A stretch of DNA of 38,047 bases, taken from the NCBI GenBank assembly GCA_013416795.1, contig RQSC01000907.1, positions 136,131-174,177 of the forward strand, given 5' to 3'. This DNA comes from Prasinococcaceae sp. CCMP 1430. Lineage: Eukaryota > Prasinodermophyta > Palmophyllophyceae > Prasinococcales > Prasinococcaceae. Under the pieces are notes generated by a model. That model made no database searches, was not told the DNA's origin, and saw only the letters and a list, made by a program, of their open reading frames with translations. This document shows, one piece after another, positions 17,535 to 18,243 of the stretch. Each line of letters starts with the position of its first letter. Position 1 is the first letter of the stretch. The translations under genes and the position numbers were made by a program.

Positions 17535-18243
17535 GTTCAGCTAATCCTTGTGGAATAATACCAAAGGCTTCACAAATTGCTTCAATCCATCCGCGAGTCC
17601 CGTCCGGTCCAATAGGAAACGGTGCACTAATCAATTTACAACCTTTACGTCTCATAAGAGTTGTTGCTGTTCGGTTTAAAAAAGGATTAACCCCACATAT
17701 TAATGTTTGATGAGTTAAGTTTGGTAAATCTTGATAAGTTGCTGTTGGGATCCATCCCTGAATAGGAATATTATATTTTTCTAATTCGTGGGTTAACATT
17801 TTGGATACATTTGTTGGTAAAGAGCCAAAAAGAATTAGATTTGGTTGAGCTTTTGTTACTTTTTCTTGGTTTGGTAAGACATTACAACGTTGAGCAAGAG
17901 CCGCTAAAACAGTATCTTCTCCTTGAGTAAATGCATAATCTAATCCATTAGCACGAGCGACAATAATTGGACATTTAATTTCTGCTTCAATTTTTGGCGC
18001 AAGTCCTTCCAAATCCATTTTAATAATTTCTGTGGTACAGGTCCCAATCCAAAAAATAACGCTTGGATTACGGGTTTTCTTAATTTGGTGACATAACCGT
18101 TTTAGTTCATTATAATCATTGAATTGTGCAGAAATATCACCTTCTTCAAGTTCTGCCATTGCATAACGTGGTTCGGCAAAAATCATTACGCCCAATGCAT
18201 TTTGTAAAAAATATCCGCAAGTTTTTGTACCAATTACTAAAAA
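17535..18243 (-). pseudogene. chlN: Internal fragment of plastid chlN (light-independent protochlorophyllide reductase subunit N)
   Basis: Read on the minus strand from 18243, this gives an uninterrupted 236-codon piece of ChlN, the NifD/K-like subunit that pairs with ChlB to form the catalytic component of DPOR. It begins mid-protein at [20 protein letters not shown] and continues through [38 protein letters not shown] and [19 protein letters not shown], ending at [13 protein letters not shown]. The first Fe-S cysteine region (before residue about 45) and roughly the last 40% of the protein are missing, so it cannot work as ChlN. Base composition and codon use are strongly AT-rich, as in plastid DNA, and change abruptly at both borders to the GC-rich nuclear type. 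No internal stop or frameshift is seen, which argues for a recent insertion or an assembly join. The overall open frame happens to extend from 18519 to 17482 through both borders. Confidence 0.93.

Follow-up and report, generated by a model that had tools for sequence, protein, structure and literature searches.

A 709-bp plastid chlN segment in a nuclear contig is very probably an assembly chimera

Natural plastid-to-nucleus transfers (NUPTs) usually form sets of graded age; in some species the set is strongly skewed towards young copies, and young-skewed and mosaic NUPTs have been described in plants (PMC3989485). Algae with a single plastid are reported to carry very few NUPTs, as their transfer window is limited (PMC7329468). 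On the assembly side, PMC9575681 notes high misassembly rates at gap-closing sites, and searches for described chloroplast gap-fill artefacts gave little. The chlN segment analysed here resembles NUPTs as plastid DNA in nuclear sequence with abrupt borders, and real NUPTs may be mosaic. Unlike NUPTs, it belongs to a group of fragments with no decayed copies in the searched part, with an association with assembly gaps, and with decapitated genes. The likeness to misassembly at gap-closing sites lies in high-copy foreign sequence placed where a GC-extreme gap is expected, and sister pieces end at N; however, the gap at the chlN site is fully closed, carries no N, and includes a 55-bp nuclear piece.

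The window, i.e., the whole stretch of DNA analysed, comprises 38,047 nucleotides (C138:136131-174177) of a 24.5 Mb assembly of 145 gapped contigs. The features around the segment are as follows.

15081-16955, minus strand: left neighbour, an intact ABC transporter (ABCG-type half transporter, 624 aa; PF00005, PF01061)
17489-17534, plus strand: probable 5' coding end of the host gene, transit-peptide-like, ending in an extreme-GC stretch (direct reading)
17535-18243, minus strand: very probably misplaced plastid fragment, an exact copy encoding ChlN residues 38-273
18244-18298, strand not assigned: second foreign piece of 55 bp from the interior of a glutathione synthetase ORF, bluntly joined to chlN
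18299-19465, plus strand: host gene body, with a hydrophobic stretch near its start and an acidic tail (open frame 18245-19465)

The GC content of the segment is 31-44% in 100-base windows, against 63-70% in the surrounding DNA, and its minus strand holds a single open frame of 236 codons. The sole perfect counterpart lies inside a plastid genome of the same assembly, hereafter plastid 1 (C136:233834-234542, minus strand), with 709/709 identity and zero bases extendable beyond either border. The source chlN is intact (L005:4724-6046, 440 codons), adjoins chlL on C136, and has rpoC2, petA, psbA, and psaC close by; its full protein of 440 aa matches the NCBIfam ChlN/BchN equivalogs with E-values of 2.7e-186 and 5.9e-181. 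The initial annotation, made from the letters of the window, had described an uninterrupted central ChlN fragment, AT-rich and plastid-style, set with abrupt borders at exactly these coordinates into GC-rich nuclear DNA. All of this was borne out, and the alignment to the organism's own plastid genome that it had proposed gave complete identity. Such identity is expected of a NUPT derived from the organism's own plastid and also of a chimera drawn from a high-copy source. Neither border (17535, 18243) carries an N, and a search of the assembly turned up no second or allelic version of the contig in which the insertion site is empty. An expressed or fused chlN was rejected, as the fragment lacks both gene ends, runs antisense to the host gene, and carries many stops in the host sense direction. 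An older NUPT was likewise rejected, since the 709 bp show 0 differences, which puts the 95% upper bound at about 0.4%.

The right border had been read as a direct return to the neighbouring gene at 18244, which turned out differently. Positions 18244-18298 are identical (55/55) to C131:70748-70802, the middle part of an intact glutathione synthetase ORF (PF03917, E 3e-108; PF03199, E 5e-33), and the join between chlN and this GSH2 piece is blunt, with zero shared bases. The whole interruption is a 764-bp mosaic of 709 bp of plastid DNA and 55 bp of another nuclear gene, so that the sequence adjoining the plastid piece is itself misplaced, as an assembly chimera would have it.

On the left side, an ATG at 17489 opens the transit-peptide-like stretch, which runs into the border, and the final 50 bp before the border reach 88% GC. 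This stretch probably belongs to the gene on the right of the insert. The host frame from 18299 stops at 19463-19465, and its first in-frame ATG lies well inside. No usable start follows the insert, and the gene's own sequence resumes at about 18299 and not at 18244. A true insertion would disrupt the host gene, except if it sits in an intron. The gene body (18299-19465) has no Pfam family match, and a PDB search gave weak matches only, to proteins named TFD, which do not establish a family name. We left the gene unnamed on these grounds, and the plastid function attributed to it earlier is unproven. Scaffold gaps within the window appear as a single N at 8931, 20771, and 36567 and as a 91-base N run at 13369-13459.

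We searched the assembly with 40 kb of plastid 1, about half of that plastid. As a result, 14 fragments of 55-4,360 bp, about 10.1 kb in total, were found in nuclear contigs, all of them with 97-100% identity. Their lengths are 709 bp (C138), 3,139 bp (C82), 4,360 bp (C84), 428 and 396 bp (C52), 378 bp (C1), 173 bp (C100), 133 bp (C112), 119 bp (C75), 73 bp (C44), 65 bp (C2), 62 bp (C76), and 55 bp each on C79 and C88. No decayed plastid copies were found in nuclear contigs with this query; older copies would have shown, since the same searches report plastid 1/plastid 2 matches at 64-82%. Additionally, 10 kb of mitochondrial DNA yielded three nuclear fragments, all with 100% identity (252 bp on C120, at least 108 bp on C75, and 92 bp on C124), whereas 9 kb of plastid 2 yielded no nuclear fragments of its own. 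The copies of graded age that NUPTs would leave genome-wide are thus not seen among these 14 plastid and three mitochondrial pieces, although an age range supports NUPTs rather than strictly defines them, as some species are skewed young. Two perfect plastid pieces on C52 (198371-198798 and 205169-205564) lie 6.4 kb apart, the second ending at an N run, and overlap by 49 bp in plastid 1. In C98:211943-225648, several kb have exact counterparts in the mitochondrial DNA of C41, the contig that carries cox1; this is probably another chimeric scaffold or a duplicated organelle piece.

Five of the 17 organelle fragments abut N, as listed below, where about 0.04 would be expected (p about 7e-10). 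The expectation was derived from the N-run density of nuclear sequence (11 runs in 85.7 kb), a chance of ~0.0026 per fragment.

C44, 73 bp: N at the right border
C52, 396 bp: N run at the right border
C84, 4,360 bp: N at the right border
C82: N within 5 bp of the left border
C124, mitochondrial, 92 bp: N at the right border

In four of these five cases the N is a single base, which fits assembly gaps better, though some N runs may not be gaps. Borders independent of assembly gaps, as NUPTs should have, are consequently not a property of this class, while the chlN site itself is free of N. The sites are also extreme in base composition: GC of at least 80% occurs within 50 bp of the border at 12 of the 13 plastid sites tested, against 21% of random nuclear positions, and a mean as high as the observed one was never obtained in 20,000 permutations. 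Extreme-GC DNA is typically under-represented in sequencing.

Other fragments stand at the starts of genes. A 378-bp clpP plastid piece (C1:147196-147573) directly precedes a citrate synthase open frame, which is without its start and most of its presequence. This enzyme matches mitochondrial enzymes best (E 4e-166) and is the only mitochondrial-type citrate synthase found, the other three being of bacterial or peroxisomal type. On C82, a GH38 glycosidase frame begins immediately after the 3,139-bp plastid piece. Breaking the sole mitochondrial citrate synthase found would be hard to survive, and unassembled GC-rich 5' ends are the simpler account. The citrate synthases at C78:22014-23111 and C11:25206-26270 are bacterial-type by their best solved relatives, and the assembly may owe both contigs to bacterial contamination.

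Contig C136 contains joins of another kind. Plastid 1 occupies 218,047-295,785 as AT-rich DNA. Its first 329 bp recur at the far end, which identifies it as a circle of 77,410 bp in linearised form. Nuclear DNA of ~70% GC passes into plastid 1 at 218,047, and plastid 1 passes into a second, different plastid of ~44% GC at 295,786, both without N. Plastid 2 (C136:295786-465236) has its own chlL, chlN, psbA (93% protein identity), and psbD, an indication that the sample included DNA from a second alga; its chlN, with a DNA identity of only 74%, was rejected as the source of the segment in the window. The ycf3 gene in this region appears intron-split. Another perfect plastid 1 piece starts at 465,237, directly after an N run, and close to the end of the contig there is a complete 16S rRNA gene of bacterial/plastid type. 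The gapless series of nuclear DNA, plastid 1, and plastid 2 implies that this assembly makes organelle-nuclear joins that cannot be natural, as would be expected if the chlN segment were one more of them.

Taken alone, the chlN site is compatible with a genuine, very recent NUPT, in which a double-strand break was end-joined with a 709-bp plastid and a 55-bp nuclear filler: the junctions are blunt, the filler is mosaic, the host gene is interrupted, and the plant examples cited above show young and mosaic insertions (PMC3989485). The two C52 pieces, neighbours in the plastid, also suit a transfer. We nevertheless consider a NUPT unlikely. All 17 organelle fragments are 97-100% identical to their sources, a decayed class is missing, five fragments adjoin N gaps, the sites are GC-extreme, the chlN fragment sits inside an apparent coding start, and a similar piece precedes the only mitochondrial-type citrate synthase found. 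The scarcity of NUPTs in single-plastid algae (PMC7329468) weighs in the same direction, a single plastid being an assumption here. The very recent transfer raised in the initial annotation is thus not supported by the genome-wide pattern of fragments. It is quite improbable that breaks in the GC-extreme gene starts of a picoplanktonic prasinodermophyte are filled with mosaics of fresh plastid, mitochondrial, and nuclear fragments, with a turnover too fast for decayed copies to persist. A chimera formed by ligation or amplification in the sample or library, and assembled faithfully with no gap-closing error, would account for the blunt chlN|GSH2 join, which implies a chimeric molecule, and it is clear from plastid 2 in C136 that mixed DNA went into the assembly. 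However, a single chimeric molecule should not lead back into the original nuclear locus beyond the insert, and the adjacency to N points to scaffold gaps; as a complete explanation it is extremely improbable and is best seen as one ingredient of an assembly chimera.

An assembly chimera, which had also been the favoured alternative at the outset, is therefore our preferred explanation, held with high confidence over a true plastid-to-nucleus transfer on the basis of the N-adjacent sisters, the ~100% identity, the extreme-GC sites, the mosaic border, and the other chimeric joins. The extreme-GC 5' end of the nuclear gene, from about 17500, would have been poorly covered and would have left a scaffold gap. 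This gap may then have been bridged, at gap closing or scaffolding, by 709 bp of abundant plastid DNA together with 55 bp of glutathione synthetase DNA, the foreign sequence probably arriving via chimeric library molecules or chimeric contig ends. Because the chlN|GSH2 join is blunt and without shared bases, a plain overlap-driven error is insufficient, and the explanation has to assume that a molecule or contig end was itself physically chimeric. We infer the exact software or library step, as well as the closure of the N-less chlN gap in the same way as the gaps of its sisters.

Fragments of this type would mislead both NUPT/NUMT counts and gene annotation in this assembly. Half of plastid 1 alone gives ~10 kb of perfect organelle fragments in nuclear contigs. 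Such fragments seem to have replaced the 5' ends of several genes, among them the one mitochondrial-type citrate synthase found. A true insertion would be a case of plastid DNA captured by an early-branching green lineage, but the evidence speaks against it.

Plastid 1 also bears on the identity of the host. Among its genes are those for an rbcR-like LysR-type regulator, an ftsI-like penicillin-binding transpeptidase, and Ycf66. The plastid genes rbcR and ycf66 are described for Prasinococcales but not for the remaining chlorophytes, and some of these species also have ftsI (PMC4194372); plastid 1 shares this unusual set with prasinodermophyte (Prasinococcales/Palmophyllophyceae) plastids. Its circle of 77,410 bp is likewise similar to the plastid of Prasinoderma coloniale CCMP 1220 (77,750 bp, 65.9% A+T). 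Together these features suggest a prasinodermophyte host close to Prasinoderma coloniale.
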